Origin: Marinobacterium litorale DSM 23545 | Lineage (GTDB): Bacteria > Pseudomonadota > Gammaproteobacteria > Pseudomonadales > Balneatricaceae | DNA: 38,599 nt | NCBI RefSeq assembly: GCF_000428985.1 | Contig: NZ_AUAZ01000035.1 | Span: forward strand, 1-38,599 | Reading direction: 5' to 3' | Part shown: in pieces, positions 2,061 through 38,349 of the stretch | Position numbering within the stretch: the first letter of the stretch is position 1 | How the letters are laid out: each line of letters begins with the position of its first letter | The notes under the pieces: generated by a model | What the model saw: only the letters and a program-made list of their open reading frames with translations | Told to the model about the DNA's origin: nothing | The model's database searches: none | Program-made: the position numbers and the translations under genes

Positions 2061-4805
2061 TTACAGTACCTCTGCGGTCAACCCGGTCGGGGCTCTCAGC
2101 ACACCGAACGAGGATTCAGTCGATTGAAGGGAATCGAGACCGCCTTTGACTGCGGTGACCCTCAATTCGATCGTAAGGGTTCCCGCAGGCGGCGGGTTGG
2201 CGGCTACGTCGAACGAGTAGGTTCCGACAGCGCCCACATCCGTGCTGAAGTAGCTCGACTGAAGCAACGCCCCCTCCGAGTCGTAAGCACTGGCGTCCAC
2301 TCGATACGTCGTGCCCGCTTCCGGGCCGTAGTCGGCGTTCTCGAACCAACTGACCGCCTGATCGGACTGAGCGAGCCTGTCCCGGTGGTTCCAGGTCAGC
2401 ACCACCGTATCGGTGCCAGGGGTGTAGTCCTGCGGGTCATACTGCCCATCCAGTCTGACGTTGGCTGCAGGGTACGGCCGGTTGACCCGGTTGACGATTG
2501 GCAGGTCCAGATACGTCGGCGTGCCTGAGTAGGAGCCCCTACCATTGACCGGGCGGCCGTACCCTTCGGCGGTCTCCCCTTCGGCAAATTCCGTTAAGCC
2601 TTGGCCGTATTCGTCTTCAATGAAGTAGAGGACCGTCCCCGAGGCGATCGGCCGGGGGAGTGTGTCCGCCACACCGCGGAGCACAGACAGGGACGTAGCC
2701 CCCGGCTGCAGGTCAGCACTAAGCGCCATGATCTCCCGCTGGTCGTCGGCAGCATCACCCACCAGAACAATCGAGCCTGCGAACAGAGGTTCAGAGATGG
2801 TCAGACCTGAGATGGGGATAGTGCTGTCTGAAGAGTTGTCCACCGCCGCACTAACCGAGGCGATTTCAGTGAAGTCGGCCTTCACGCTGTCACTGAAATC
2901 AACCGGAGGTGTCACGCCGTCCGGGTATACGAAGAGATCGTAATTCAGGTGAAGGCCGGTGGTCGGCACACCCCCGGCAAACGCGAAGTAGCCCACGTCC
3001 GCTGGAATGTCGGTGGCGTAGTTGTCGCCGATCTGCTGAATCAACAGGTAATACGGCAGTTCAAAAGCGGTTACGTGACTGAACCCCTGCGGGGGCATAA
3101 CCGGGTCCGTCCAGCCTGAGGGTGAGGGCGCCGAGAATACCGAGTATTCGGTGCCGAACACGTCCTCACCAAATTCCAGAACAATCTCGCCGTTGAGTAG
3201 ACCGCTGTCTGTGCGCTTGGCTACGCGGCAGATCATCTCCGTGATCCCGTTGTCCGGGTCCGTCAGTTTGAATACGTCGCCGGGTTTCAGATTGGACACG
3301 GAGCGGTTGGTGCGAACGGTCCCCCGGGCGAACGGCCGGCTGTTGGCCGCCAGATCACGTTGCGCGACCATCGCGGCTGTCGTGTCGTTGGTGAGGCCAG
3401 GGTACTCGTAGGTTTGGTTGATAATCGTCCCCACAGCCGTAATGGCGGCGGTATCCTGGACCGTAATTGATGCATCGGAGTTGGTTTCCCAGTTCCAGTA
3501 CGTAACGGTCACCTGGTTAACCAACTCGGAGATAGCCGGCGTGTCGAACTTCGTCACTTCCGAATTTGTGGGGTCGAGTAAGGGCAGAGTTGCCGGGTCG
3601 TAGTCGCCCCGGATCAGTTTGATCTCCTGCAGCCCGGTTTCCGGGTCCTCGTACCGCACGGCATCAATGTGGCGCATGATTTCGGAAACGAAGTCCTCGA
3701 TCGGCGCTTCCTGCGTCCACAAGATCGACATGCCGAGCGCTTCAGCGTAGAGCTGGTCCGCCACCGTCGTGTACGTTGGGCCGATCTCGGACTCCGGCAG
3801 CCCGCGCCCCCACGTAGTATCCGTCAGACATTCCCGGATGATGTGCGCCGGGTTCATGTCGAACTGTGACTGACCGCCTGCCGTTACCTTGAACGCTGCG
3901 TAAGAGTATGAACCTTCGTCTTCCCCTGCCAAAACGATGGTGTTGTCACCCTCAACCAGAATATCTCCCGGGACGTGTATTTCGTGCGTGAAAGCAGGCC
4001 CGGATGGCGTATCGATAGTTCCCGCCCGATCCAGCAATTTCGTCCCGTTCACCCACACCGAGGCCAGGTTATCCACGAAAAGGGTAAGCGTGAAGTTGGA
4101 GTTCCGTTCCAGCGTAAATACTCTGCGAATCCAGATTTTGCTATTCAGGTCCCAAGTTGTGCCCTTAGTCGTCGGGAAGCCGGAATCCGCGGCGAAAGGG
4201 TGCCCCGACTGATTTGCAAACGGGGTGCTTCCGAGCGCCCAGGATGAATCGTCATAGGCGGGGTCCGAGTAGTCAGCACTGTCTGTAAGGGGGACCTGCT
4301 TATAGCGCCAGCCGTCAGAAGTGGGGCCTATCTGCTCCGTCAGAGCGACATGAGACCGGATCTCCGCCTTCCCATCATACCACTGAACCTGCCCGTCCCC
4401 CCGCGTATGAATCCGCTGCGCCGTCACGGCCCACGGCTTCAGATACGGGTTATTGCCCACATAGACCTGTTTCAGCACCAGTGAGGTGACACCCCGGTAC
4501 GCGCTGACCAGCGCGGAGCCGATCTTGTCGAGGAGGTAGCTGTTGCGGGCTTGCGCCGGGTGGCCGGAGAGCACGTCGACGCTGCCGGCGACACCGCCTT
4601 CGCGGCTTTCGCCGCCGAACAGGCTGGGCTTGTCGATGGTGATCTCGCTGCCGGCGGCGCTACTGGCATCGGCCTCGCCGATCCATGCGGTTTTGTCATC
4701 GACATCGATCTTGATGATCTTATCGATCGGCCCGTGGCACAGCACCAGATGGGCGCCGAGGTAGTACTTATACCCAACCGTCTGCTTCTTACCGCCGCCG
4801 CTCAT
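2061..4805 (-). CDS. Tail tip/hub protein, lambda J-like role, with inserted sugar-binding domain
   Basis: This 914-residue central tip protein follows the small tip genes in the usual siphovirus order. The N-terminus (GGGKKQTVGYKYYLGAHLVLCHGP) is typical of hub proteins of the Phage-tail_3 type in B3/D3112-like and gene transfer agent-like tails. Residues about 155-310 look like a galactose-binding jelly roll of the beta-galactosidase kind (WALGSTPF, IWIRRVFTLE, LFVDNLASVWVNG, EGDNTIVLAGED), apparently inserted into the hub. The C-terminal third contains beta-rich repeats and an FN3-like segment near residues 780-914. Its start overlaps the upstream stop (ATGA). Confidence 0.8.
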   Translation of the reverse strand: MSGGGKKQTVGYKYYLGAHLVLCHGPIDKIIKIDVDDKTAWIGEADASSAAGSEITIDKPSLFGGESREGGVAGSVDVLSGHPAQARNSYLLDKIGSALVSAYRGVTSLVLKQVYVGNNPYLKPWAVTAQRIHTRGDGQVQWYDGKAEIRSHVALTEQIGPTSDGWRYKQVPLTDSADYSDPAYDDSSWALGSTPFANQSGHPFAADSGFPTTKGTTWDLNSKIWIRRVFTLERNSNFTLTLFVDNLASVWVNGTKLLDRAGTIDTPSGPAFTHEIHVPGDILVEGDNTIVLAGEDEGSYSYAAFKVTAGGQSQFDMNPAHIIRECLTDTTWGRGLPESEIGPTYTTVADQLYAEALGMSILWTQEAPIEDFVSEIMRHIDAVRYEDPETGLQEIKLIRGDYDPATLPLLDPTNSEVTKFDTPAISELVNQVTVTYWNWETNSDASITVQDTAAITAVGTIINQTYEYPGLTNDTTAAMVAQRDLAANSRPFARGTVRTNRSVSNLKPGDVFKLTDPDNGITEMICRVAKRTDSGLLNGEIVLEFGEDVFGTEYSVFSAPSPSGWTDPVMPPQGFSHVTAFELPYYLLIQQIGDNYATDIPADVGYFAFAGGVPTTGLHLNYDLFVYPDGVTPPVDFSDSVKADFTEIASVSAAVDNSSDSTIPISGLTISEPLFAGSIVLVGDAADDQREIMALSADLQPGATSLSVLRGVADTLPRPIASGTVLYFIEDEYGQGLTEFAEGETAEGYGRPVNGRGSYSGTPTYLDLPIVNRVNRPYPAANVRLDGQYDPQDYTPGTDTVVLTWNHRDRLAQSDQAVSWFENADYGPEAGTTYRVDASAYDSEGALLQSSYFSTDVGAVGTYSFDVAANPPPAGTLTIELRVTAVKGGLDSLQSTESSFGVLRAPTGLTAEVL

Positions 4806-4984
4806 TCAGTCTTTCCCTCAGCATGGTCAGCCGCCTTGATCGCGAACGCGGAGCCGGTGGCGCGCAGCTCGGATGCCGGCACGCCGTCGCGGAACCGGCG
4901 CGCATCGAATCCGTGCTCAGCGCACCAGCGCTTGATGCCGCCGGCGCAGTAGCCGAGCTGTCGCAGATGCCGGAATGTCACCAT
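4802..4984 (-). CDS. Small tail-tip module protein (60 aa)
   Basis: The product is MVTFRHLRQLGYCAGGIKRWC onward, ending AEGKTE. Small proteins with an N-terminal LR-LGYC-G--RW--HG pattern recur at this place in Mu-like siphophages, between the small membrane-anchored tip protein and the hub. The start at 4984 lies just downstream of the preceding stop, and the stop overlaps the hub start by 4 nt (ATGA). The molecular role is unknown; tail assembly is inferred from position only. Confidence 0.65.
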   Translation of the reverse strand: MVTFRHLRQLGYCAGGIKRWCAEHGFDARRFRDGVPASELRATGSAFAIKAADHAEGKTE

Positions 4985-4995
4985 CACCTCGTCGC

Positions 4996-5232
4996 TCACT
5001 TCTTGCCGCTTTTCTTCTTGATCGCCTTGGTTTTGATGTCGCCGTACCAAACCACGGATGCGCCTTTGATCACGCGGGTGCCGAACAGCACCGGGATGCT
5101 CTTGCCCTCCTGCGCGGTGGGGATGTCGAACTCCTCGGCCGCGGCCGGGTTCGGCTGTTTCGGCTTTGGCACCAGCAGGAACGAGGCGGCCATCAGGCCG
5201 ACGGTCAGCAGGAACGGTACCCAGAATCCCAT
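4996..5232 (-). CDS. Small tail assembly protein with N-terminal membrane helix
   Basis: This 78-residue protein begins with a hydrophobic helix (residues 2-21, GFWVPFLLTVGLMAASFLLV), followed by a Pro-rich stretch, a short folded core (EGKSIPVLFGTRVIKGASVVWYGDIKT) and a Lys-rich tail. The core resembles the opening of tip proteins of gene-transfer-agent and B3-like tails (IPVLFGTR). It sits between the DUF2163 protein and the 60-residue tip protein. Its function in tip assembly is inferred. Confidence 0.7.
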   Translation of the reverse strand: MGFWVPFLLTVGLMAASFLLVPKPKQPNPAAAEEFDIPTAQEGKSIPVLFGTRVIKGASVVWYGDIKTKAIKKKSGKK

Positions 5233-5240
5233 GGTTTACC

Positions 5241-6059
5241 TCACACCAGGCTGGAGCCCTCGAAGGGGCCCTTGGGCGGGATGAAGTCGAACCCGCCGTA
5301 GTTGTCGATGTTGGAGTACTTGGCATCGCAGGTAGCGGCGGAGCGATCGCAGCCGGGGAAGATCTTCACCGCTGAGCCGACCGCGAGGTCGAGCAGCTGG
5401 CGGTTGATCGTCACATGGTCACCCGTGTGGTTGATGATCAGGCGCATGATGCCGTCCAGCTCGAGGATGCCGCCGGCGAAGTAGCCGTCATCGAACCCGG
5501 CCGCGGCCGGCAGGGTCAGCAGCGTGCGGTTCGACAACGCCGTTACGGTATCTGCAACTTCATAGCTGGCCCGGCTCAGGCCGCAGCCGGTGCCGTAATG
5601 CACGTGCCGGCACTGGCGCTGATAGCGGGCACGGCAGCCGGTGGCCTTCAGCGATGTGGAGATCCGCTCGCAGGCGGCCGTCATCCACGGCCATTCCCAG
5701 CCGACGGTGACCACACGGCCGGACCAGGTGGCGATGACTTGTTGGTCGGGATCGTCCAGCTCTGTCTCTCTGATTTTGACAGTCACCAGCTTTTCAGGCG
5801 GTTGGACTCTGAAGAGGTCACCCAGCGGGTTGATGCCCGTGATCTCGATATTCAGCGCATTCCCATCATCCGGATTTCCGTCATCCGAGATCTTGTCCCG
5901 GGTAATCGGTACCGATGTGTAGGTATACCCTCCGACCGCGACGTCATGATCCGCACTGGTGAAACGAATCGTGTCCGCCTCATCGTCGGTATACCGGAAC
6001 TCATAGAGCGCCGCCGGGCGGCTGGCATAGCCGGTTGTTGAGTACTCGGAATGACTCAT
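5241..6059 (-). CDS. Phage BR0599/DUF2163 family tail tip protein
   Basis: This 272-residue protein of the BR0599 family is part of the tail tip of siphoviruses related to gene transfer agents. The N-terminal half has a beta-rich domain (YEFRYTDDEADTIRFTSADH). The C-terminal half has conserved cysteines (GCRARYQRQCRHVHYGTGCG and CDRSAATCDAKY), and it ends in the characteristic NYGGFDFIPPKGPF motif. The cysteines may bind an iron-sulfur cluster or form disulfides, as proposed for distal tail proteins of this group. Its start overlaps the upstream gene end by 4 nt. Confidence 0.85.
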   Translation of the reverse strand: MSHSEYSTTGYASRPAALYEFRYTDDEADTIRFTSADHDVAVGGYTYTSVPITRDKISDDGNPDDGNALNIEITGINPLGDLFRVQPPEKLVTVKIRETELDDPDQQVIATWSGRVVTVGWEWPWMTAACERISTSLKATGCRARYQRQCRHVHYGTGCGLSRASYEVADTVTALSNRTLLTLPAAAGFDDGYFAGGILELDGIMRLIINHTGDHVTINRQLLDLAVGSAVKIFPGCDRSAATCDAKYSNIDNYGGFDFIPPKGPFEGSSLV

Positions 6060-7264
6060 GCCACGTCCTCCACTATCTGAATTGCGATCGCAAACTTGGC
6101 CACCTCATCCGTGATCCACTCGATCTCCAGCCGATCGCTGGCGAGACGGCAGACGCTGACCAGGCACGCCTGCACGCACTCCCACGGCTCGTAGGCCTCG
6201 GCCCAAGCCTCGGTTGTGGTGATCACCGTCACGCCGTCATTAACGTTTGCTGTCAGCGCTGTGATCTCGAAAAACGCCAGGCTCCGGTCACGCTTGCGGA
6301 CCATCAAATGGGTGTGTATCGGGTCGCCAGTGAGGTATGTACCGAGCTCGGTACCCGGCACTTCAAACGTTGCACCGGCAGTGAGTGGATCTTGAAGATT
6401 GATATCCCACCAGGTGGGCATCAGGAACGGTCTCTGCCGCCCCCGGCATCGATCGAAGAACGCCAGCCACCAGTCGGTTTCTGCTCGGGTCTCTGTTGTG
6501 ACTTCGCCTTTGCGGGTGTTCGGCGGCAGGTCACCATCGGTCTCGTATGCGGTGGGGCCGATCTGCGCATCGATCATCATCGGCACCCAGGCGTAGCCCG
6601 CTTCCGGTGAGTTCACCCAGTTGATCGGTCGCACGAGTACTTCGAGATCACCAATGGTGTCGTCCGCCGTGAGCGTGGAGCTGACCGGCGGGCGGCTATC
6701 AACGATGTAACTAAATGAAAGCGGCAGACGCAGCACACCGGATGTCAGGCGCTTACCGCTGGCTGCGCCGTTGATCTGAGCCGGTACCGCCGGATAAACA
6801 GCGCTGTAGGTGCTCCAGTCGGCCTCCAGCGTATCAACCAGGGTGATGGTCACGCGGTCGCCCGCGATCGCCGCGATCGTCTGCGCCTCCGGCTCCTGGC
6901 CTGTGCGCATCAGTACCAGGTAATCACCGGCTTGAGCGTCATAAGCAACCGGCTGATCAAGTACCAGGATGTCGGTACCGGTGGCCGCGCTGCTGGCAAG
7001 TCGGCGCTGTCGATGCCACTGCGGCAACAGCCAAACATGGGGCTGCAGTGCGTACAGCATATAGTCCAGCGCTGTCGCGTCGTTGCCATCCAGGAGCACA
7101 TCAAATGAAAGGCTCTTGCGTGGTTTGGAACGCATCGCCCGACGCTGTTCTGTACCGTCACGGCTACGCATGACGTCGGTCTTATACTCACGCGACTCGG
7201 TCACTGAACTGGACCAGTTGTGGGGGAAGCGGAAGATTGCGGCTGTAGTGGACGGCAGCGGCAT
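6056..7264 (-). CDS. Tail protein downstream of the tape measure (402 aa)
   Basis: It has no domain I can name with confidence. The protein opens MPLPSTTAAIFRFPHNWSSSVTES and is beta-rich, with repeated aromatic and charged strands and no membrane segment. Position right after the tape measure and before the BR0599 protein is where B3/D3112-like phages carry a conserved distal tail protein, so a tail-tip role is likely. It begins 2 nt after the tape-measure stop. Confidence 0.65.
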   Translation of the reverse strand: MPLPSTTAAIFRFPHNWSSSVTESREYKTDVMRSRDGTEQRRAMRSKPRKSLSFDVLLDGNDATALDYMLYALQPHVWLLPQWHRQRRLASSAATGTDILVLDQPVAYDAQAGDYLVLMRTGQEPEAQTIAAIAGDRVTITLVDTLEADWSTYSAVYPAVPAQINGAASGKRLTSGVLRLPLSFSYIVDSRPPVSSTLTADDTIGDLEVLVRPINWVNSPEAGYAWVPMMIDAQIGPTAYETDGDLPPNTRKGEVTTETRAETDWWLAFFDRCRGRQRPFLMPTWWDINLQDPLTAGATFEVPGTELGTYLTGDPIHTHLMVRKRDRSLAFFEITALTANVNDGVTVITTTEAWAEAYEPWECVQACLVSVCRLASDRLEIEWITDEVAKFAIAIQIVEDVA

Positions 7265-7266
7265 GA

Positions 7267-10200
7267 TCAGCTCCCGAGGATCGCGTTGATGGAGGATTTT
7301 TCGGCTTTGACCGTGGCCTTAAACTGCCGCGTCCAGCTCGCTGTCGACGCCATCTTCTGAGCCATTTCTTCGGGATCCATGAAAAAGTTGGCCTGTAAGC
7401 TCATACCCTGGCCCTCGCCACCTTGCTGTTGTGGCTGTGTCAGGCTTGGCTGATTAAGCTGTGGCGCACTCATCTGTGGCGCTGGAACACCGGCCAGCCC
7501 CCCGGTTGCGTGTTTGATACGTGCAGTCCAGTCATCGAGTGCAGCCATGCCGCGCTGGTTAAAGTCACTCAGGAACGGCAGCGCACCGGGCTGCTCAACC
7601 ACCGCCGCACGGGTCACAAACTCCTTATTGGAAAGACGTGCCGGGATGCTGTCAGAGGTGCCGGTACCGGGGCCCACAACCAAACCGCCGGTAGAGAATC
7701 CCAAGCCTGGGAACATGCCCGCCAGGCCCGCAACGGCCTTCTGGGCTGCGATCTTAGCCAGCATATCGATCATGGCGTCGCCCACTGACTGGATCAGCGA
7801 GACGGTGGCATCACGCAGCGTCATGGTGCCGTCTGCCAGGCCGCGTATAGAACCGGCTATACCGGCCTCAAGCCCGTCTTTCAGGGTGGAGCCCAGCAGT
7901 GTGGTTGTGTTCTGTAACCGGTTGGCCTGGTTATCCAGATCTCCAAGCATGGCGCTGGCCTGCTCGCCAATAACACCTGGTTGTTTCGAGAGCTCCTCCA
8001 GGAGCGGGCGTTGCTGCTGGAGTACTTCATATGTCTGCCGGTGGATCTGAAGGATCCGATCGCGAGCCTCCAGCTCAGAGATCAGGCCAGCATCCTGTTG
8101 GATATTGACCGACTCTTCAGCGAGGTTTTGCTTATTGATGATCGAATCGATCTCAGACTGGACTTCAGAGAGCCGGGTACGGGCGAGATCCAGGTTGATT
8201 AACCGATTGACCAACGCGGTACCGGCATCATCGCCTCGGCTCTCCAAGCGGCTCAGGAGCTCACCGAACTCTTGCTCCAGCTCCATTGATCGCGCACCGA
8301 CCGCATCACCCGACAGCGCCATCACTTCAGACTGGATGCGCTGCAGCTGCCGCGCATCCTCAGTGACCTGGTTGAGCCGCTCCTGCGCCGCAATTGCCTG
8401 GCTGGCAGCCCGAGCGCGAGCCAGCAACTGACCAGTCAGACCTTGCTCAGCAATCCGGTACTGGCGCACCTCTTCAGCACTCTTGTTCTGCAGGGCGACA
8501 GTACGCTCAAGCTGCTCGACAAAGGCACGCTGGGCGTCTCTGCGCTGCTCTGCAGTGCGATCCGCTTCCTCTTCAGCCGCTTTCTTTTTACGTTCCGACT
8601 CGGCGGCATCCTCGTTGCTCTTAGCCAGCTTCTGGTTGGCTTCGACCTGGGCGAGGATCATTTTCCCAAGTTCGGATTGGCGGTCGATCTGGTTCTCTCG
8701 CATGTAGAGCAACGCCTCTTCGATAGGCGTTAAGTTTTGCAGCGCTACATTCTGTTTTTGGAGTGCCGTCAGGTATTTCTGTGCATCAGTGACAGCCTTC
8801 GGACTATTGATTGAACCCGAAGCGGAACTGGCAGCAGTCTCAGTGCCCTCCAAGGCTGCCTTCAACGAGTTGAGGCGTTCAGTTAGGTTCTCAGCTTTAC
8901 GGCCTCCTTTCAGGATACTATCCATCAAGTCGAGCATTCGCTCTTTGGTGTCATCCGAGATTTCAGATGATTCACTAAGGGCGGTACCAATCTGATCGAA
9001 ATTGACCTCTAGACCTTGGGCTGCACGGGCTGAAGCCTCACGAATATCGTTCATCAGCTGCTGGGTTTCTGCGGACCACCTGGCCGCTTGGATCTGCGGG
9101 CCCGATGCACCCAGCCAACCGCCAGCACGTTCACCACCGGGTGTGGCCAGGTTGGCCAACTGACGAGCATCATTCACACGTTCGTTTTGCTGTTGACTGA
9201 TATCGTCTGACAGCTGTTTAAGCTCGCGGTCCTGTTCCAGCTGTGTCAGCTCTTTCAGTTTATCTACAGCCTCGCTGAGGGGAACATTCATGTCCCGAAG
9301 TGACTGCGTAACTGAGTCTGTAATGCGCTCGGCATCGTCGCCGAAATCGATAAAGCTGGCTGCTACCAAGCCGACTGAAACGGCAATCCCAACAGGCCCG
9401 CCCAGGGCGGCGGACAGAGCTGCGCCAGCAGTTTTCAGACGAGCTAAGGAGGTCAGCAGCAGACTGTTGGCAACACGGGCTCGCTCAGCGGCAACCGTGC
9501 TTGCGTTAGTCGCTTGCGTCAGCGTGGCGGTGGCCGCTGCAGCGTTGCCGGTGGCTACTGTTCTTGCTTCCAGAGCGGCATCCAAACGCGCCTGTGCTGC
9601 CGCATGAGCGTTAGCTGCCTGGGTTGCCCGGGCCTCCAGGACAGTATGGGTTGAGAGCCCCTTAGCTGCTGACGCCTGAGCGGCCGTCCGCTTCGCTGTT
9701 TCGCCTGTCGCCCGCAGCTCCGCTTGAGCACTGGTTACGGCTGCTTTCGCTTTTTCCAGATCTGCGGCGGCCGCCCGCTGGGCTGCAATCGCGACGCCTT
9801 CCTGGGCCTTTGCCTGATTGGCTGAGGCGGTTGCATCAGCTCGCTTCTGCATTATCCCCTTAAGCGTCTCTTCAGATAGGTCCGATAGCGCAGCAACGGC
9901 GCGACCAGCGGTCAGAATCAGAGCGACTTCAAGGGCAGCACCGACTACGTCAGCATTATCGGACAGGGTATCCAAGACATCAGCCAGCGCACTGATCGCA
10001 TCGGCAATTCCTTCACCCGCACCAGTACCACTGGAGAGCGTCCCAATGATTCGGGTGAACGCTGCATCAAACTCCGTTGCAGCCTGTGAAATAGTGCGCA
10101 CACGGGTTTCGAACTGTTCATCGACACTAGCGGCTGCATTGCCCAGGGCTTCGACCAGGACATCAGCGGTCAACTGGCCCTCGTTTGCCATCTCACGTAG

Positions 10201-10965
10201 CTTGCCGATATCGACGCTCAACCCCTCGGCAAGAGCCAGCGCAAGCCCCGGAGCCTGCTCCATGACGGAGTTGAATTCCTCGCCGCGGAATACGCCGGAC
10301 GCCAGCGCCTGGCCGAACTGAACCGTGGCGGCTTCAGCACTCGCGGCTGCGCCCCCGCTGATTGCAATCGACTTGCTGACAGTATCGGTCAGTTGAGCTG
10401 TCTCACGCTGGGAAATATTCAGCCGGTCGGCGTTCTGGGCAAAGCGCTGGTAGATGGCAGCGGTGCTATCCAGTTGCTGGCTTGCATTACGCGCAATGGC
10501 GTAAACATCAGCGCTGGACTGAGCCAGCTCTCCCTGAGTGGCCGTAACCAGGCGCAAACGGTTTTCGTAGGCGGTCCAGGCATCGGCAGACTGGGTGATC
10601 TGCGCTAAGCCAAATCCAGCGGCCAGGGTCAGCGTTACCGCTTTGACGGAGCGGGCCAGCGCTGTCATGCCGCCACCTACGGCCTCGGTGGTTTCGGTTA
10701 GCTGGCGGGAAGAGCGGTTGGCGGAGGAGAGCGCAGAATCATACTGGCGGGTTGTTGTCGCCGCTTGAGCGGTGTTTTTAGCGGCTGTTCCCGCCGCTGC
10801 TCCAGCGGCACCGATTCCACCGGCAGCCGTACGGCCAGAGCGGCCAGCGCCATCGGCGCTGGTACGCGTATCGTCCAGTGCCGCATCCAACTGGTTCACC
10901 TGGCGGATCGCCTGCTGGAGGTCTGCTTTTATGCGGAGTGCGAGTTCGAGGTTCTTATCGGCCAT
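7267..10965 (-). CDS. Tail tape measure protein
   Basis: This 1232-residue protein sets tail length and is ejected with the DNA. Residues about 120-300 carry the classic tape-measure N-terminal domain (YENRLRLVTATQGELAQSS, FNSVMEQAPGLALALAEGL). Long Ala/Gln/Arg-rich coiled coils fill the middle (about 390-480 and 740-1040). A hydrophobic patch lies near residues 505-535. The C-terminus has the lambda-type Gly-rich motif (FSTGGLVVGPGTGTSDSIPARLS). From the usual rule of about 0.15 nm per residue the tail should be near 185 nm. A late-promoter-like element lies 49 nt upstream of its start. Confidence 0.95.
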   Translation of the reverse strand: MADKNLELALRIKADLQQAIRQVNQLDAALDDTRTSADGAGRSGRTAAGGIGAAGAAAGTAAKNTAQAATTTRQYDSALSSANRSSRQLTETTEAVGGGMTALARSVKAVTLTLAAGFGLAQITQSADAWTAYENRLRLVTATQGELAQSSADVYAIARNASQQLDSTAAIYQRFAQNADRLNISQRETAQLTDTVSKSIAISGGAAASAEAATVQFGQALASGVFRGEEFNSVMEQAPGLALALAEGLSVDIGKLREMANEGQLTADVLVEALGNAAASVDEQFETRVRTISQAATEFDAAFTRIIGTLSSGTGAGEGIADAISALADVLDTLSDNADVVGAALEVALILTAGRAVAALSDLSEETLKGIMQKRADATASANQAKAQEGVAIAAQRAAAADLEKAKAAVTSAQAELRATGETAKRTAAQASAAKGLSTHTVLEARATQAANAHAAAQARLDAALEARTVATGNAAAATATLTQATNASTVAAERARVANSLLLTSLARLKTAGAALSAALGGPVGIAVSVGLVAASFIDFGDDAERITDSVTQSLRDMNVPLSEAVDKLKELTQLEQDRELKQLSDDISQQQNERVNDARQLANLATPGGERAGGWLGASGPQIQAARWSAETQQLMNDIREASARAAQGLEVNFDQIGTALSESSEISDDTKERMLDLMDSILKGGRKAENLTERLNSLKAALEGTETAASSASGSINSPKAVTDAQKYLTALQKQNVALQNLTPIEEALLYMRENQIDRQSELGKMILAQVEANQKLAKSNEDAAESERKKKAAEEEADRTAEQRRDAQRAFVEQLERTVALQNKSAEEVRQYRIAEQGLTGQLLARARAASQAIAAQERLNQVTEDARQLQRIQSEVMALSGDAVGARSMELEQEFGELLSRLESRGDDAGTALVNRLINLDLARTRLSEVQSEIDSIINKQNLAEESVNIQQDAGLISELEARDRILQIHRQTYEVLQQQRPLLEELSKQPGVIGEQASAMLGDLDNQANRLQNTTTLLGSTLKDGLEAGIAGSIRGLADGTMTLRDATVSLIQSVGDAMIDMLAKIAAQKAVAGLAGMFPGLGFSTGGLVVGPGTGTSDSIPARLSNKEFVTRAAVVEQPGALPFLSDFNQRGMAALDDWTARIKHATGGLAGVPAPQMSAPQLNQPSLTQPQQQGGEGQGMSLQANFFMDPEEMAQKMASTASWTRQFKATVKAEKSSINAILGS

Positions 10966-30935: not shown

Positions 30936-32681
30936 ATGAGCGCGCTGACTGAACAACTGGTGATGATTGCCCAGCAGGCGCGCGAGCTGCCCCACGGTCA
31001 GAAAACGCCCTTCTATGACCGCTGGGCCCGGCAGCTGTGTATGTCCCGCGCCACGTTACTAAAAAAACTCAAAGGTGTTGCCATGAGCAATTCACGCAAA
31101 CGTCGCTCTGATGCCGGGCAGTGTGCCCTGGAGCTGAGCGAAGCCCGGCTGATCTCTGCGGTGCTGATGGAAATGATACGCCGCAACAATAAACGCAACG
31201 GCACGATCAAGGCGGTGGTTAAGTTGCTGCGCGAAGACGGCAAGATCCGCGCTGAGAAGTTCGATAAAAGCACCGGCGAACTAACACCGCTCAGTGATGA
31301 TGCGATCGCCCGCGCTTTACGCAACTATCGCCTGCATCCCGACCAGTTGCTGGCCCCACCACCAGCGATCGCACAGCGCAGTGCTCACCCGAACCATGTA
31401 TGGCAGGTGGATGCGTCGATCAGCGCCCAGTTCTATATGGATGTTCACGGTTCTGAGGCGATCGACCCGGCCCAGTATTACGACGGCAAGCCGGAGAACC
31501 TGAAGAAGATCGAACGCAAACGCCTGTGGCGCTACGTGATCACCGACCACACCAGCGGCACCCTTTACCTGGAGTACGTGCTGGGTGCGGAGAGCGCCGA
31601 GAATCTGATTAACGTGTTTATCAACGCGATGCAGAAACAGCGCGAAGATCCGTTTCATGGTGTGCCGTTCATCCTGGTAACGGACCCCGGCGCGGCAATG
31701 AAGTCGGCCATGTTCCGCAATCTGTGCCGTTCGTTGAGTGTGGATCTGATCATCAACGAGGTGGGTAACGCCCGCGCCAAGGGCCAGGTGGAGCAGGCCC
31801 ACGACATGGTGGAAAAGCTGTTTGAGAGCCGTCTGGCGATTCAGAAGGCGAACAGCCTGGATGAGATTAATCAGCTGGCCTGGCGCTGGATGCGGCACTT
31901 TAACGCCACCGCCACCCATACCCGCACCGGCATGAGCCGCTATTCCAAATGGATGGAGATCCAGCCGGATCAGCTGCGCCTGGCGCCTGGCGGCGAGCTG
32001 TGCCGCGAGCTGGCGGTGAGCGACCCGGAAACCCGCGTGGTTGATAACTACGTCCAGATCTCTTTCCGTGGCAAGCAGTTTGATGTTTCCAGCGTGCCGG
32101 ATATCGGTGTGGGCCAGGAGCTGATGGTGGTGCGCAACCCCTGGCGCGACGAAGACACCGCCCAGATCGTGCTGCGCGATGAGCACGGTCGCGAGATCTT
32201 TCATGTGGTTGAGGCGGTGGAGCGGGACGATCACGGTTTCAACGTGAATGCGGCCATGATCGGCAGCGAGTACAAGCGCCACGCAACCACGACAGGCGAG
32301 GAGCAGCGTCAGCAGCTGGAGCAGATCGCCACCGGTACCACCTCCATCGCCGAGGCCGAGGCCGCCCGCAAGGCGAAGCGCCGGGTGTTTGCCGATATCA
32401 ACCCCCACGCGGATGTGGAGGCGTACAACCCCACCGACTTTATGCCTAAGCGCGGTACCGCACTGGATGTGCATACCCCTCGGCTGGTCACCAAGCCGCT
32501 GACCCATGTGGAGGCCGCCAAGCTGCTGCGTGATCGGCTGGGCAGCTGCTGGAAAGGTGCCGAGCACTTCGGCTGGCTAAAAGCGACCTATCCGGACGGC
32601 GTACCCAGTGAGGAGATCGATGCCATCGAGGCGCTGCTGCGTCAGCCGAAGGCCAATCTGAAACTGGTTGGGGGTGCGTGA
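30936..32681 (+). CDS. Mu-type DDE transposase (MuA analogue)
   Basis: This 581-residue protein joins phage ends to target DNA for integration and replication. The N-terminal 130 residues hold HTH DNA-binding parts (FYDRWARQLCMSRATLLKKLKG). The catalytic core shows D159 in VWQVDASIS, D250 in ILVTDPGAAM and E286 in AKGQVEQAHD; the last two have 35 residues between them, a classic DD(35)E. The C-terminal part (about 375-450) resembles the Mu transposase beta barrel, then a basic Ala-rich segment that may contact the ATPase. Confidence 0.93.
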   Translation: MSALTEQLVMIAQQARELPHGQKTPFYDRWARQLCMSRATLLKKLKGVAMSNSRKRRSDAGQCALELSEARLISAVLMEMIRRNNKRNGTIKAVVKLLREDGKIRAEKFDKSTGELTPLSDDAIARALRNYRLHPDQLLAPPPAIAQRSAHPNHVWQVDASISAQFYMDVHGSEAIDPAQYYDGKPENLKKIERKRLWRYVITDHTSGTLYLEYVLGAESAENLINVFINAMQKQREDPFHGVPFILVTDPGAAMKSAMFRNLCRSLSVDLIINEVGNARAKGQVEQAHDMVEKLFESRLAIQKANSLDEINQLAWRWMRHFNATATHTRTGMSRYSKWMEIQPDQLRLAPGGELCRELAVSDPETRVVDNYVQISFRGKQFDVSSVPDIGVGQELMVVRNPWRDEDTAQIVLRDEHGREIFHVVEAVERDDHGFNVNAAMIGSEYKRHATTTGEEQRQQLEQIATGTTSIAEAEAARKAKRRVFADINPHADVEAYNPTDFMPKRGTALDVHTPRLVTKPLTHVEAAKLLRDRLGSCWKGAEHFGWLKATYPDGVPSEEIDAIEALLRQPKANLKLVGGA

Positions 32682-33850
32682 TGACGCTGAAGCTGAAAGC
32701 CGTACTGAAACAGCTGGGTAAACCCCAGGCGGATCTGGCCCGTGTGCTGGATCTGAGTGGCGGGACGATCGCCCAGCTGGTCAACCACAGCCAGTGGCCA
32801 AAGTCGCTGGATCGCGATGCGCTGAAACAGAAGATCGAGATGTTTTTGGAGGAGAGCGGTGCCGACGCTAGCACCGTCAGCACCGCTTTTGAGCCTGAAG
32901 AGCCGCTACCAACCGCCCTTCAACACACTGCCATGTCCCAGGAGGACGAACCTATGTTACTACGCAAGCAACGCCTGACACCAGACGCCAAAAAGACCTT
33001 TGGCATTTACCGCGAGCCGTTCGATGAGCTGGCGTCGCCGGATGAGATGTGGATCAGCCCCGATATCCGATACGTGCGCGAATCAATGCTACAGACGGCG
33101 CGATACGGGGGCTTTATTGCCGTAGTCGGCCAGTCCGGCTCTGGCAAAAGCACGCTGCGCCGCGACCTGGCCCAGCGCATCCAGGATGAATCCCATCCGG
33201 TGATCCTGGTGGAGCCCTATACCGTGGAAGCGGAAGACTCCGACATCAAGGGTAAGCGCTTCAAGAGCAGCGATATCACCTCAGCGCTGCTGGCGGCCGT
33301 CGCGCCCACTGAAAAGCCGAAAATCAACCCTCAGGCCCGTTTCGCGCAGTTGCATCGGGCGCTGAAAGACAGCCATGCCGCCGGGTATCGCCACTGTGTG
33401 GTGATCGAAGAGGCACACTGCCTGCCGGTACCGACGCTGAAGCACCTGAAGCGCATCCTGGAGCTGGAGGTCGGTTTTACCAAACTGGTGTCGGTTATCC
33501 TGATCGGCCAGACCGAGCTGGGCGACAAGCTGAGCATCCACCGCATGGATGTACGTGAGGTTGTGCAGCGCTGCGAGCTGGTCACCCTCAACCCGATCGA
33601 TCCCGGTGAGCTCAAAGAGTTTCTGACCTTCCGCTTTGGCAAGGCCGGCTGCCAGTCGGTTGAGTTCCTGAATGAATCGGCCATCCCTGCGCTGATTCAC
33701 CGGCTGCAGCTGCCCGATCGCAAACGCGACACCCGTGTTTCTAACTTGTACCCCCTGGCTATTGGCAACCTGGTAACTGCGGCTATGAACTTGGCGGCTG
33801 AGCTGGGTCTGCCGGTTGTCGATGAAGAAGTCATTAATGGAGTTAGCTGA
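32681..33850 (+). CDS. AAA+ transposition activator (MuB/TnsC analogue)
   Basis: This 389-residue ATPase selects target DNA and activates the transposase. An N-terminal HTH (KPQADLARVLDLSGGTIAQLVNHSQWP) is followed by a Glu-rich linker. Walker A is VGQSGSGKST (residues 149-158), Walker B is VVIEEAH (240-246), and a sensor region VSVILIGQTELG follows. The ATG at 32681 overlaps the transposase stop; a GTG three bases upstream is an alternative start. Confidence 0.92.
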   Translation: MTLKLKAVLKQLGKPQADLARVLDLSGGTIAQLVNHSQWPKSLDRDALKQKIEMFLEESGADASTVSTAFEPEEPLPTALQHTAMSQEDEPMLLRKQRLTPDAKKTFGIYREPFDELASPDEMWISPDIRYVRESMLQTARYGGFIAVVGQSGSGKSTLRRDLAQRIQDESHPVILVEPYTVEAEDSDIKGKRFKSSDITSALLAAVAPTEKPKINPQARFAQLHRALKDSHAAGYRHCVVIEEAHCLPVPTLKHLKRILELEVGFTKLVSVILIGQTELGDKLSIHRMDVREVVQRCELVTLNPIDPGELKEFLTFRFGKAGCQSVEFLNESAIPALIHRLQLPDRKRDTRVSNLYPLAIGNLVTAAMNLAAELGLPVVDEEVINGVS

Positions 33851-34121: not shown

Positions 34122-34393
34122 GTCGATACGACTATTACGTCATTGATTTGGAAGCGACACGGAGCACCGGACGCGTGATGTTCTTCGGTAAGGGGCTGCG
34201 GAATCAGCTTACGCCTGAACCAGAGCAAGCCGCCGTTATTACCGAGGAGTTTGTGAACGGCAACACCGAGTTTTACGACAACGGTGATACCACTCGCGCC
34301 GTGCTGTGTAGCGCTGTCCGTGAGTACCGGGACAACCTGATGGAGCTGATCCATACCCGTCACCCTGAACCCGCAAAGGAGCTGATCGCATGA
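34118..34393 (+). CDS. Small early protein (91 aa), unknown
   Basis: The product opens MSRYDYYVIDLEATRSTGRV. It has a short N-terminal beta-alpha unit and an acidic centre (VNGNTEFYDNGDTT). The DLE after a beta strand resembles an exonuclease start, but the protein is too short to have that fold. Both ends overlap neighbouring genes by 4 nt (ATGA), which supports the frame. Confidence 0.6.
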   Translation: MSRYDYYVIDLEATRSTGRVMFFGKGLRNQLTPEPEQAAVITEEFVNGNTEFYDNGDTTRAVLCSAVREYRDNLMELIHTRHPEPAKELIA

Positions 34394-35019
34394 ATACCCA
34401 TACGCAAATGCCTCAGAAAATCCCCGAAGGGTTTCTGATGAATCACCGGGGCGACCTAGTGCGAGTCGAGAATATCAGCGAGCAGGACCAACTCCGTGAC
34501 CAGGTTGTTTCAGGGTTGGTACCCGAGGCTGTTGAACTAAATGAACGACTTCTCGCTTTCAAGAAACGGGCGCTGTCCGATATCGATGACCTGATCGATA
34601 TCGCTAAAGAGCGGATCGGCGTCCAGCTCGGCGGCAAGAAGGGCAACATTGAGATCCGCAGCTACGACGGGCGGTTCAAGGTTGTCCGAGCCTTCCGGGA
34701 TCTCATCGCCTTTACCGAAGAGGTGGAGGCTGCCCGCCAGCTCATCGAGAACTGTATTGAGCGCTGGGGCAGCAGTGCGAGCACGATGCGGCATGCATTT
34801 GAGCAAGCATTCGGGCTGAAGGATGGCAAGGTCCGCACGTATCGACTGCTGGAAATGCTCAGCTGGAATATTCCAGACGATGAAGAGTGGGACGAAGCGA
34901 TGCAGGTCCTGCGCGCAGCCATGCGTAACAGCGGCACGGCGGTTTATGTACGCATCTACGAGCGGATCGGCGAGAGCAACGAATATAAGCCGGTCGCTCT
35001 GGATCTGGCGAAGTTGTGA
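34390..35019 (+). CDS. DUF3164 family protein
   Basis: This 209-residue protein is common in Mu-like early regions. Recognisable segments are IPEGFLMNHRGDLVRVENISEQDQLRDQVV, LLAFKKRALSDIDDLIDIAKERIGVQLGGKKGNIEIRSYDG and VRTYRLLEMLSWNIPDDEEWDEAMQVLRAAM. Its biochemical role is unknown. It starts in an ATGA overlap with the upstream gene. Confidence 0.88.
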   Translation: MNTHTQMPQKIPEGFLMNHRGDLVRVENISEQDQLRDQVVSGLVPEAVELNERLLAFKKRALSDIDDLIDIAKERIGVQLGGKKGNIEIRSYDGRFKVVRAFRDLIAFTEEVEAARQLIENCIERWGSSASTMRHAFEQAFGLKDGKVRTYRLLEMLSWNIPDDEEWDEAMQVLRAAMRNSGTAVYVRIYERIGESNEYKPVALDLAKL

Positions 35020-35027
35020 GGTGGGAT

Positions 35028-35267
35028 ATGGGCGTTGTTAACCCTGAAAAGCTCTCGATCGATATGGCCTTCCATGCGCGCATGACCAGCGGACAGGCTG
35101 AAGACGCTATCCGCGTATTCGGCGAACTGGTGACCCGAGCTGTTGCCGATGGCCATACGGTTGAACTGCCAGCCTTCGGAAAGTTTGAACTCGGCAAGCG
35201 CGGCAACGGCGAGCCCGCTCTTCGATTCGTCCAATCAAATAGCGTACGGAAGGCGCTTAAATCATGA
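35028..35267 (+). CDS. HU-like DNA-binding protein, divergent copy
   Basis: The 79-residue product (MGVVNPEKLSIDMAFHARMT start) has the helical dimer part (SGQAEDAIRVFGELVTRAVADGHTVELPAFGKFEL) and the HU FGKF motif, but the DNA-binding arm is short. GAGG lies six bases before the ATG; an upstream GTG at 35016 is less likely. It may bend DNA for transposition or regulate the operon. A second, fuller HU gene lies at 36032. Confidence 0.65.
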   Translation: MGVVNPEKLSIDMAFHARMTSGQAEDAIRVFGELVTRAVADGHTVELPAFGKFELGKRGNGEPALRFVQSNSVRKALKS

Positions 35268-35749: not shown

Positions 35750-35968
35750 ATGAGTACTGTAACTATCAGCCTAACTGACAACGACGAAGGAGCGGTTGAC
35801 GTGAAGATCGAAGGCCTTCCGGATCGAGGACACACACCCAGTAAAGCCCAGGCCTTTGGTGAGGCGCTGCGCGACACGATCGGGAGCCTCAGTCCGTGCG
35901 TTAGCGGGATGGGAGATAACGTGTGCCCATACTGTGATGGCACCTGTACCAAGCGAAACGGGCCGTGA
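35750..35968 (+). CDS. Small protein ending in a CPYCDGTC motif
   Basis: The 72-residue product opens MSTVTISLTDNDEGAVDVKI and has a beta-rich start, a helix (SKAQAFGEALRDTIGS) and a Cys-rich end NVCPYCDGTCTKRNGP that may bind zinc. Its last five codons and stop lie inside the first hammerhead ribozyme: the UGA stop is in the loop of stem III. Translation to the end would therefore disturb folding. Function is unknown. Confidence 0.6.
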   Translation: MSTVTISLTDNDEGAVDVKIEGLPDRGHTPSKAQAFGEALRDTIGSLSPCVSGMGDNVCPYCDGTCTKRNGP

Positions 35969-36009
35969 ATGGTCCGTCTATCCGGCGTGGCTGCCGGGTA
36001 CTGATGAGC
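35953..36009 (+). ncRNA. Hammerhead ribozyme 1 (type II), before the HU gene
   Basis: All core bases match: GC then GAA (35955-35957); stem III ACGGGCC/GGTCCGT (35958-35964 with 35971-35977); C17 at 35978; stem I TATCCGGC/GCCGGGTA (35979-35986 with 35993-36000); and CTGATGA (36001-36007) followed by GC. Cleavage is expected after 35978. Stem II is short next to the core (GC/GC); outer pairing CCTGT (35943-35947) with ACAGG (36019-36023) would cover the HU ribosome-binding site. Confidence 0.8.
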
Positions 36010-36031
36010 AGCCGAACAACAGGAGATATCC

Positions 36032-36322
36032 ATGAATAAAGCAGATCTGATCGAAGCACTGACCAAGGATATGAAGGTTACCCATGATCGTCCGGTCAGT
36101 AAGGCCGATGTCCAGGCCTTCCTGTCGAGCTTTACCGCTGTCGTCTCAGAGGAGATGACACACAGCGATGTAGTAATACCAGGGTTTGGGAAATTCCATG
36201 TTTCCGAGCGAGCAGCACGCAAGGGTCGCAACCCTCAGAACGGTACGGAGATCGATATCCCCGCAGCGCGTGTTCCCAAGTTTACGCCCGGAAAGCTGTT
36301 AAAAGAGACCGTCAATAGCTAA
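36032..36322 (+). CDS. HU-family DNA-binding protein
   Basis: This 96-residue protein is a clear HU/IHF-type subunit. The helical body (MNKADLIEALTKDMK, KADVQAFLSSFTAVVSEEM) is followed by VVIPGFGKFHVSERAARKGRNPQNGTEIDIPAARVPKFTPGKLLKETV, which contains the DNA-binding arm with RNPQNG. It would bend DNA in transposition or compete with host HU. ACAGGAG precedes the ATG. It is bracketed by two hammerhead ribozymes, and its stop codon lies in stem II of the second. Confidence 0.92.
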   Translation: MNKADLIEALTKDMKVTHDRPVSKADVQAFLSSFTAVVSEEMTHSDVVIPGFGKFHVSERAARKGRNPQNGTEIDIPAARVPKFTPGKLLKETVNS

Positions 36323-36384
36323 GCGAAACAGGCGGTACGCCGCCTGTCTGCCCGACGTGGTGGTCGGGTACTGATGAGCAGCTA
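36316..36384 (+). ncRNA. Hammerhead ribozyme 2 (type II), after the HU gene
   Basis: The core is complete: stem II TAGCT-AA-GC (36316-36324) pairs with GC-AGCTA (36378-36384) with an AA bulge; GAA (36325-36327); stem III ACAGGCGG-TACG-CCGCCTGT (36328-36347); C17 at 36348; stem I TGCCCGAC/GTCGGGTA (36349-36356 with 36363-36370); and CTGATGA (36371-36377). Cleavage is expected after 36348. Stem II includes the HU stop codon and runs into the AGGAG of the next gene. Confidence 0.85.
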
Positions 36385-36394
36385 GGAGAAAGCA

Positions 36395-36970
36395 ATGCAA
36401 CTGTCAATCTTAGAAGTCCGCATACTCAACGAACTCGCCCGGCGTGGGCCCTGCGCCGCATCCACCATCATGCCCCATGTTGAGGGGTTGGATTCAAAAG
36501 CGCAGCTGAAAGGCACACTGGAGGGGCTGGAGAAGAAGGAGCTGGCGAAATACCAGTCAAACGGTCAGTGGGCAATGCCTGCCGCCCTCAAGAAAAAGGT
36601 GCTGGACGGAAAGGTCGGAGCAACGGTCGATACTACGGTAACGACACCGCCGGTCGCTGACATTAAGCCCGCGCCGGTATCGGTTAAGCCAAAGGTGGCA
36701 GCAAAACAGAAGCCCACAGCACCGGCTTCCGGCAAACAGGCAGCGGTGAAGGTGCCGGTACTGGAAATGTCCGAGCCAGCCAGCACCATCAGTCCCCTGC
36801 AGGCCTTGCGCAACAGCCTGCCGCCCGGTGTTGAAATGTATGTGAGTGATGAGGAAGCAATCCTTCACTGGGAAGAGAATACGTTCAAGATCGAAGATGA
36901 TGCGTTGGATACAGCCTTGGGCGCTATCCGTACCCTTGAGCGGTTGAAGGTGGGGTCTACATGCAGCTGA
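36395..36970 (+). CDS. Winged-helix-like early protein with Pro/Ala/Lys linker
   Basis: This 191-residue protein has an N-terminal winged-helix pattern (ILEVRILNELARRGPCAASTIMPHVEGLDSKAQLKGTLEGLEKKELAKY). A long Lys/Pro/Ala/Thr-rich linker (about 75-125) and an acidic C-terminal domain (PPGVEMYVSDEEAILHWEENTFKIEDDALDTALGAIRTL) follow. AGGAG, adjoining ribozyme 2, is its ribosome-binding site. It probably binds DNA; the specific role is unknown. Confidence 0.65.
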   Translation: MQLSILEVRILNELARRGPCAASTIMPHVEGLDSKAQLKGTLEGLEKKELAKYQSNGQWAMPAALKKKVLDGKVGATVDTTVTTPPVADIKPAPVSVKPKVAAKQKPTAPASGKQAAVKVPVLEMSEPASTISPLQALRNSLPPGVEMYVSDEEAILHWEENTFKIEDDALDTALGAIRTLERLKVGSTCS

Positions 36971-37428
36971 CCCGTTGCCCTATTTGCCACAGCCGCATCC
37001 ACCTGGACGCCCTCGTCCAGGATGACGCCGGCCGCGAGCTGCTCGCACTACTGTCCAACCTCGACCGAGCCGCCGGTCGCTCGCTGGTCTCATACATGAC
37101 GCTGTTCCGGTCGAAATCTCGCGACCTGGCCAGTGATCGAGCGTTACGGATCGCTAAAGAGACCTTGGACCTGGCTCCAATTGATCGCTTGGTACCGGCA
37201 TTAATAACCGTCGTTGAGCAAATGCAGGTTAAGCAAGATGTCGGCGGCTTTAAGCCCCTCAGTAACCACAACTATCTGCGCAAAGTGGTCGAGTCCTCTG
37301 GCCCAGCTAACCAGGTTGAAGGCGATATCGACAACTTGCCTGCGGATCTCCGTGGGGCAGAGAGCAAGAACGAAAAACGCGCACGCGTAACCGCTGCGAC
37401 TATGGATATTAAGAACATCGACTGGTGA
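36961..37428 (+). CDS. Conserved early protein with N-terminal CxxC
   Basis: The 155-residue product begins MQLTRCPICHSRIHLDALVQ. The CPIC and a following His could bind zinc, as in small proteins found in the same place in B3-like phages. The rest is helical (LALLSNLDRAAGRSLVSYMTLF, RALRIAKETLDLAPIDRLVPALITVVEQM), with an acidic tail. It overlaps the upstream gene by 10 nt and the next by a few bases. A replication-linked role is possible but unproven. Confidence 0.65.
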   Translation: MQLTRCPICHSRIHLDALVQDDAGRELLALLSNLDRAAGRSLVSYMTLFRSKSRDLASDRALRIAKETLDLAPIDRLVPALITVVEQMQVKQDVGGFKPLSNHNYLRKVVESSGPANQVEGDIDNLPADLRGAESKNEKRARVTAATMDIKNIDW

Positions 37429-37433
37429 ACCGG

Positions 37434-37997
37434 ATGAGCAAAAACCCCCAGCGCAATCGAGACCTAGCCGCCATCCACGCTGCCCGTCGTGCACTAGCGT
37501 TGGATGAAGATCTATATCGCGAGCTCCTGGAGCAATGGACCGGCAAGCGCAGCGCCGCCGATCTGACAGCCCGCGAGCGTGGCAAGGTACTCAACGAACT
37601 CGGAAAAATCGGTTTTCAACGTAAGCCGCGCCAACAACCAGGTAAACATCCAGGAACGCCCAACAACCTGGAAAAGGAGCCAATGCTCCAGAAGGTCGAA
37701 GCGCAGCTCGCCGATATGAAGTTGCCCTGGTCCTACGCGGACGCGATCGCAAAGCAGCAGTTCGGCATTGCCCGAGTGGGTTGGTTGAAAACCACGCGTC
37801 AGTTTGACGCCGTGATCGCCGCGCTCCATGTAGAGCAGGAAAAGCGATCGCTTTGGACCGCTGTAGAGCGTGAAATGAATCGACTCGGCCTAACCGAGGC
37901 CGATATCGAGCGCGATTACCACCCCCGAAAAGGCTGGAAGCGAAACCGCAAAGCGCTTGAGCAGCTTCTCAGCATCCTAAACGTGAAGGAGGCTTGA
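37434..37997 (+). CDS. GemA-like regulatory protein (DUF1018, Mu gp16)
   Basis: The start MSKNPQRNRDLAAIHAARRA at 37434 is favoured over GTG 37425, which overlaps the previous stop. The 187-residue basic protein has the GemA pattern (ALALDEDLYRELLEQWTGKRSAADLTARERGKVLNELGKIGF, then SYADAIAKQQFGIARVGWLKTTRQFDAVIAALHVEQEKR). In Mu, GemA alters host gene expression and DNA supercoiling. It precedes the Mor-like gene, as in Mu. Confidence 0.85.
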   Translation: MSKNPQRNRDLAAIHAARRALALDEDLYRELLEQWTGKRSAADLTARERGKVLNELGKIGFQRKPRQQPGKHPGTPNNLEKEPMLQKVEAQLADMKLPWSYADAIAKQQFGIARVGWLKTTRQFDAVIAALHVEQEKRSLWTAVEREMNRLGLTEADIERDYHPRKGWKRNRKALEQLLSILNVKEA

Positions 37998-37998
37998 T

Positions 37999-38349
37999 AT
38001 GGCACGCGACGGAAAAGGAATGGAAGGCCGCAGGCATGAGCTCCTGGAAGACGTCCACGCCCGCGCTGCGGAAGTGGCCAAAGAGCTCGGCATTGACCCT
38101 GATCTGGCTGATCAGATCGGCTGTGCGATTGCAGATCACCTCGCGCAAAACTGGGGCGGCCAGAACTTCACAATTCCGATGGATTACCACTATCGTATAG
38201 GTAAGCGCGACTCAGAAATCTACGACCTCTTTACCGGTAACAACCACCACATCCTGGCACGCGAATTTGGCATGACCGTGCGAGGCATATATAAAGTCAT
38301 TGCACGCGTTCGAGCCAATGGCGACCCGGATCAGCACGACTTATTCTGA
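37999..38349 (+). CDS. mor: Mor-family transcription activator (middle/late switch)
   Basis: This 116-residue protein matches the Mor/C family. The dimerisation region (HELLEDVHARAAEVAKELGIDPDLADQIGCAIADHLAQNWGGQNFTIP) is followed by KRDSEIYDLFTGNNHHILAREFGMTVRGIYKVIARVR, the C-terminal HTH. AAGGAGG precedes the ATG. It should bind promoters and recruit RNA polymerase; the three 21-bp elements upstream of late genes are the natural targets. Only one Mor-type gene is seen, whereas Mu has both Mor and C. Confidence 0.88.
   Translation: MARDGKGMEGRRHELLEDVHARAAEVAKELGIDPDLADQIGCAIADHLAQNWGGQNFTIPMDYHYRIGKRDSEIYDLFTGNNHHILAREFGMTVRGIYKVIARVRANGDPDQHDLF

Follow-up and report, generated by a model that had tools for sequence, protein, structure and literature searches.

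A hammerhead ribozyme pair by which the early message of a Mu-like prophage can probably cut itself into single-gene pieces

Phage T7 produces a long early mRNA that is cut between genes by RNase III, and the resulting pieces carry end hairpins. Cleavage by a hammerhead produces ends with a 5'-OH and a 2',3'-cyclic phosphate. In the available excerpts of Perreault et al. 2011 (PMC3088659), hammerheads in prophages are reported to flank genes, as with ardA in Agrobacterium tumefaciens, and processing to single-gene messages is proposed; native polycistronic RNAs with clustered hammerheads cleave in vitro and one arrangement does so in E. coli, and 14 of the 18 consensus hammerheads tested were active. 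The excerpts of a further study (PMC10085705) describe hammerhead and twister ribozymes as lying close to one another and as having their strongest association with genes of Mu-like phages, the reason being called unknown, while those of another (PMC6155905) mention ORFs of small, non-conserved proteins flanked by hammerheads. For the Mu-like Pseudomonas phage Fc02 the early operon has been mapped, and it ends in gemA and mor; the available part of that text (PMC9936078) holds no mention of hammerheads. In E. coli, RiboJ, a hammerhead joined to a hairpin, raises transcripts about twofold on average and protein by a factor of two to ten; stability conferred by the hairpin is named by the authors, in the part of the paper at hand, as a possible explanation (PMC6206723).

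Here we analyze a window, the whole stretch of 38,599 nucleotides that makes up contig NZ_AUAZ01000035.1 of Marinobacterium litorale DSM 23545. Its right part is the early region of a Mu-like prophage on the + strand, in which an HU gene lies between two type II hammerheads, HHR1 and HHR2 (Table 1). As in T7, a long early transcript would be cut between genes into hairpin-ended pieces; there the cutting is done by a host protein, whereas self-cutting of the RNA is predicted in the prophage. The locus resembles the clusters in the excerpts of PMC3088659 in that at least two hammerheads of one strand, with a gene between them, flank a single gene of a prophage. It differs in that the gene is HU, bracketed within a Mu-like early operon, and in that the recurrence of the bracket, a stop-ribozyme-start rule of placement and the gain and loss of units are measured. 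The initial annotation knew of no described pair that excises one gene; given the report of 2011 on gene-flanking prophage hammerheads, this claim does not stand.

Table 1. Features of the Mu-like early region and of the two hammerheads (positions in the window).
Feature	Position	Strand	Evidence
Mu-like transposase	30936-32681	+	phrog_310 8.1e-105
DNA transposition protein	32678-33850	+	phrog_296 1.6e-68
DUF3164 protein	34390..35019	+	PF11363 1.2e-49
Weak HU-like ORF	35028-35267	+	PF00216 5.6e-6
72-aa ORF, stop codon inside HHR1 stem III loop	35750..35968	+	sequence, ORF list
HHR1, type II hammerhead	35951..36017, core 35953-36009	+	RF02276 Hammerhead_II 69.6 bits, E 1.2e-12
Predicted cut 1, after C35978	35978..35979	+	cleavage-site base in RF02276 alignment
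Predicted excised HU message, 370 nt, hairpin on both ends	35979..36348	+	inferred from the two cut sites
HU gene, 96 aa	36032..36322	+	PF00216 3.8e-26; ribosome-binding site AGGAG 36021-36025
HHR2, type II hammerhead	36321..36387, core 36323-36379	+	RF02276 66.3 bits, E 8.9e-12
Predicted cut 2, after C36348	36348..36349	+	cleavage-site base in RF02276 alignment
191-aa ORF directly behind HHR2	36395..36970	+	sequence, ORF list; AGGAG 36384-36388
155-aa ORF	36961..37428	+	phrog_2161 1.8e-35
GemA	37425..37997	+	PF06252 9.8e-22
Mor transcription activator	37999..38349	+	PF08765 3.9e-32

The Pfam match of the gene between the hammerheads bears out its assignment to HU in the initial annotation. 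The core of HHR2 starts one base past the HU stop codon TAA. At the other border the upstream ORF does not end ahead of the ribozyme: its TGA (35966-35968) is part of the loop that closes stem III of HHR1; because this ORF reads into HHR1, ribosomes could block the ribozyme. Neither the 72-aa ORF nor the 191-aa ORF has a match in Pfam or PHROG. Small ORFs lie between the weak HU-like ORF and HU; the former lies outside the hammerhead pair and is 24% identical to the bracketed HU. Between 27000 and 38599 there are 5 promoter-like and 11 terminator-like sites, no excess over the 5.2 and 11.2 found in shuffles. The host genome comprises 4,380,400 bases, and IMG/VR contig 2522572179_000007 carries an identical HU.

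A cmscan of the window with all 4227 families of Rfam 15 at gathering scores returns HHR1 and HHR2 as the sole matches, both above the 37 bits set for RF02276. These scores, together with a reading of the sequence, confirm the two type II hammerheads with all conserved core bases that the initial annotation had described. GCGAAAC is found at 35953 in HHR1 and at 36323 in HHR2, with the GAA of the invariant core at 35955 and 36325, and CUGAUGA at 36001 and 36371. Stem III pairs 35958-35964 with 35971-35977 in HHR1 and 36328-36335 with 36340-36347 in HHR2; stem I pairs 35979-35986 with 35993-36000 and 36349-36356 with 36363-36370, respectively, and the stem lengths given earlier hold. The A-U pair preceding the cleavage base is 35958-35977 in HHR1 and 36328-36347 in HHR2. 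H17 is C35978 in the first and C36348 in the second, matching the cut positions that had been predicted. The two elements follow each other in register at a spacing of 370 bases. By sequence, loop I (UGG) and the tail behind stem II can form a pseudoknot that includes one wobble pair in each copy (35988-35990 with 36012-36014 in HHR1, 36358-36360 with 36382-36384 in HHR2), and the last base of this pseudoknot in HHR2, 36384, is at the same time the first base of the next AGGAG ribosome-binding site. Score, invariant core, closed stems I and III, open stem II and pseudoknot place both elements in RF02276. Compared with the type II hammerhead of this family (Perreault et al. 2011), we find the same core, three stems, open two-bp stem II and loop I-tail pseudoknot and no difference; self-cleavage of HHR1 and HHR2 is predicted. 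The printed consensus structure of RF02276 pairs 2-58 and 3-57 and the sequence suggests 3-58 and 4-57 for stem II, perhaps a quirk of the model.

The compensating stem changes noted earlier are real. Between the copies, stem III changes from G-C to A-U at pair 3 and from C-G to G-C at pair 7, and stem I from G-C to A-U at pair 7; one-sided wobble changes occur too. The minimum-energy folds of HHR1 and of HHR2 both contain stems I and III. Only 1 of 200 shuffles folds at least as well as HHR2; the folding energy of HHR1 is ordinary (20 of 200), and folding energy by itself is insufficient to establish HHR1. A structural descriptor that recovers both elements finds 0 matches when run on shuffled locus DNA (493,244 bases), and this control and the Rfam scores rule out a chance resemblance. 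In a comparison of 157 distinct, equally long 3' halves, each of the 8 pairs of stem I covaries, with mutual information of 0.44-1.51 bits and 93-100% pairable, and the central pair of the loop I-tail pseudoknot reaches 0.59 bits at 94% pairable, the next non-stem pair having 0.49. Since this set was gathered by a descriptor demanding the core and partial stems, some of the pairing follows from the selection, whereas the mutual information does not. Judged by this comparison of sequences, the conserved RNA structure is real.

How widespread are such elements? Our survey draws on two IMG/VR pattern scans, on whole genomes searched with Rfam and on fetched loci; the loci are a sample selected for carrying a hammerhead, the IMG/VR part being taken from among the matches listed. 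In a first round 39 of 129 loci were without a descriptor match and were excluded. In a second round a slightly relaxed descriptor matched in 225 locus-strands of 374 records, which k-mer clustering reduced to 159 non-redundant loci that are still related to varying degree. Genes were labeled by HMMs built from window and JBD30 seeds. We find at least 227 hammerheads in at least 159 non-redundant loci, 117 of them with one, 36 with two and 6 with three to eleven. Counts by descriptor and by Rfam differ in some loci (8 vs 4 in L054, 7 vs 6 in L050, 2 vs 0 in L129), and Rfam finds more in L036, L107, L102 and L091. Within the family of the host, 15 of 116 genomes have a match, 14 of them above the cut-off, and in a class-wide draw 5 of 369 do, with 3 above the cut-off, the genome of the window being counted in both. 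In GenBank, 75 phage records, 74 of them named Pseudomonas phage, match 37 bases of HHR2 at about 95%; in the 30 records listed, either no feature is given at the match or the record is unannotated. Pseudomonas phage JBD30 (JX434032.1, near 9394-9465) has a full hammerhead of 66.2 bits ahead of GemA and Mor, which begins at the base next to the stop of gene 18 and is followed by gene 19, GemA and Mor, and no feature is annotated there. The gene that precedes it has no Pfam match at E 0.01.

All hammerheads lie between DUF3164 and GemA in 74 of the 77 non-redundant loci, among the matches listed, that hold both genes on the strand of the hammerhead, and in 38 of these 77 HU lies there as well. 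The hammerheads beside Mu-like genes and beside one another agree with the association reported in the excerpts of PMC10085705, and what is different is that their place is specified here. A set of 25 viral loci with GemA was fetched irrespective of ribozymes; the 24 that remain without the window's own carry no Rfam ribozyme at gathering scores, which rules out that every GemA operon includes a hammerhead and likewise gives no other ribozyme class substituting for it. One of the 24, L245, has a single sRNA-Xcc1 match. Found between DUF3164 and GemA in nearly all hammerhead-bearing loci that hold both, yet absent from these 24, the hammerhead is optional and, where present, prefers one place.

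The placement of the ribozymes relative to genes is exact. In 146 of 225 cases among the matches listed, an ORF of at least 50 codons has its stop codon within -6 to +4 nt of the first ribozyme base, as against 257 of 9000 random positions (2.9%) and 5 of 225 on the antisense strand. Such stop-abutting ribozymes make up 99 of 135 in Mu-like loci and 47 of 90 in others, and when one ribozyme per non-redundant locus is counted, 101 of 157 abut a stop, 48 of those exactly (again among the matches listed). On the other side, 156 of 223 ribozymes among the matches listed are followed just behind by a ribosome-binding site and a start, compared with 10 of 223 when the following 70 bases are shuffled. 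The extreme case is L091 (IMGVR_UViG_3300017605_000570), where 11 type II hammerheads above the Rfam threshold lie within 4 kb (minus strand, 2817-6749) and all 10 intervals between them end in a stop at -4 to +1 of the next hammerhead. Each interval holds one gene of 59 to 342 codons, one of which was read by hand, the automatic table having missed it. L091 is a one-gene-one-ribozyme array, with a hammerhead after each of several small genes; its 7-kb locus has no GemA or DUF3164 label. Given this placement and the one-gene intervals of L091, excision of single genes looks like a common design and not a peculiarity of HU. More arrays, with 4 to 8 Rfam matches each, are seen in L054, L050, L107, L036 and L102, and some array hammerheads belong to another subtype, marked by a UC/GA stem II (L054).

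Two hammerheads bracket HU in at least four non-redundant loci, at 370-393 nt from cut to cut (window 370, L366 382, L368 376, L327 393 nt), all four sharing the order hairpin, start, HU, hairpin. The elements of L366 score 67.3 and 62.8 bits and those of L368, whose bracket was recognized by reading as the automatic label missed it, 61.6 and 42.8 bits; in L327 the second ribozyme and the HU frame share 18 nt, and the first element is a descriptor match. Because HU of the window and HU of L366 share only 45% identity as proteins, the arrangement is not one recent copy. In the 38 loci with HU between DUF3164 and GemA, 22 of 51 hammerheads among the matches listed stand right behind HU, where 12.0 are expected from random junctions; 22 is reached in 7 of 20,000 random draws. 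HU is not the usual bracketed gene, as 4 of 68 consecutive hammerhead pairs, among the matches listed, enclose it. Nor is the hammerhead a general companion of HU: in loci fetched for relatives of the window HU, the descriptor matched in none of the 80 loci from genomes and in none of the 5 other viral ones. The link between HU and hammerhead is confined to these phages, and the empty GemA loci together with these 85 indicate that neither the operon nor HU needs one.

We consider the pair, with a probability of about 0.62, to be working intercistronic type II hammerheads that cut the rightward early transcript at both borders of HU, the benefit being insulation. The hammerheads would fold as the RNA emerges and then cut at the two predicted sites. 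The cuts would yield a separate HU message with the stem I hairpin and a 5'-OH in front and the stem III hairpin and a cyclic phosphate at its end; the 370-nt length put forward in the initial annotation would follow from the cut sites. A second product would be the downstream message (ORF 36395, ORF 36961, GemA, Mor), also starting with a stem I hairpin. In the type II layout each new end is hairpin-capped, and besides the core just two pairs of stem II keep the products together, which should make the cut one-way. Insulation would mean that every gene is given its own defined, hairpin-capped end, so that early genes could be swapped and persist at their own level with their neighbours undisturbed. 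Cleavage of RiboJ likewise leaves a hairpin before the ribosome-binding site and standardizes the 5' end; in the available part of PMC6206723, RiboJ is an engineered element that derives from a plant satellite RNA and is used behind promoters, whereas the phage hammerheads are natural and lie between genes. The single early transcript, the cleavage in the cell and the benefit are what we infer. Sequence, fold, covariation, exact intergenic placement, recurrence, and gain and loss of units support this explanation, as do the Rfam scores and the earlier work on cleaving bacterial hammerheads and on RiboJ; against it speak the optional nature of the hammerhead, the ordinary energy of HHR1, the upstream ORF that runs into HHR1 and the small share of pairs that bracket HU.

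A broader reading, to which we give slightly less than even odds, regards type II hammerheads as RNA-level insulators of an exchangeable gene slot, the DUF3164-GemA stretch taking up whole units of gene plus hammerhead. As each unit carries its own stop-ribozyme-start joint, a new gene would be cut from the shared transcript at once and the messages of its neighbours would stay unchanged. The same device would have grown in other phages into one-gene-one-ribozyme arrays such as L091. HU would be a favoured tenant, as its excess of hammerheads suggests, perhaps because Mu-type transposition uses HU.

Units are gained or lost. A second Mu-like prophage of the same genome (contig C6, G000:C6:108354-108419; L247, ribozyme at 10357) has at the homologous junction a homologue of the 72-aa ORF, a single hammerhead and a homologue of ORF 36395, and differs from the window by lacking exactly HU and one hammerhead. 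Identity between the two prophages is 53-72% per 60 columns left of the ribozyme and 98-100% over 300 columns right of it, then 52-98%; this jump indicates that their histories change at the ribozyme. Among locus pairs with similar flanks (near-duplicates kept), the number of hammerheads differs in 17 and the cargo length in 40. For 16 of these 17 a single was compared with a double locus, and the 5' part of the single ribozyme is nearer the first ribozyme in 16 of 16, the 3' part nearer the last in 8. These observations would also fit hammerheads that matter mainly as short, conserved DNA linkers at gene borders where phages recombine and units come, go or are swapped, cleavage being incidental or only making the swap harmless. 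We regard this as unlikely. The 3' part is nearer the first ribozyme in 6 of the 16 comparisons and tied in 2, and the comparisons overlap, L350 and L307 being used six times each and together serving in 12 of 16. Nor does the C6 ribozyme fit well, its 5' part being equidistant from HHR1 and HHR2 (6 and 6 differences in 26) and its 3' part nearer HHR2 (4 differences vs 9 in 39); moreover, pure linkers need no covarying stems and no pseudoknot. The mixed 3' results indicate that some units seemingly arose via crossing inside the ribozyme and others were added beside an intact one, so that crossing-over inside the ribozyme as a general route of gain is borne out only in part. Alternatively, cleavage may be regulatory: terminating ribosomes would cover or unfold the hammerhead, so that it cuts only if translation of the upstream gene is poor, and the cut or the unfolding of the pseudoknot would control the next ribosome-binding site. 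The upstream stop codon in or beside the ribozyme, base 36384 of HHR2 shared by pseudoknot and AGGAG, and the ribosome-binding sites within 8 nt of stem II in 82 of the 156 ribozymes with a site behind (among the matches listed) are in line with this, but the arrangements in the excerpts of Perreault et al. cleaved efficiently, without regulation being shown, and we find such control improbable. A circular HU message, closed from the excised RNA as in retrozymes and viroid-like RNAs, is more improbable by far. In the excised RNA the 3' half of HHR1 stands at the front and the 5' half of HHR2 at the end, and their stem II ends match (GC/GC), so that the two termini could come together in a hammerhead fold. 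Two stem II pairs only would hold these ends, however, and Perreault et al., in the same excerpts, sought spliced and circular products and detected neither. Moreover, a retrozyme is a tandem, mostly non-coding repeat, whereas here the unit is a single coding gene, HU, and only the ribozymes repeat, differing in sequence.

Gene-flanking hammerheads in prophages and their association with Mu-like phages are already known; what is added here is the regularity of their placement and the gain and loss of units. The open-access full texts searched hold no statement that we could find of the stop-ribozyme-start rule, the DUF3164-GemA place, the link to HU or the gain and loss of units. The rule, the defined stretch and a with-HU and without-HU pair in one genome make the Mu-like association experimentally approachable, and cultured relatives exist, such as JBD30 with its full hammerhead. 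A long prophage message can probably cut itself into single-gene pieces. If insulation is confirmed, phages would have evolved on their own what synthetic biologists build with RiboJ.
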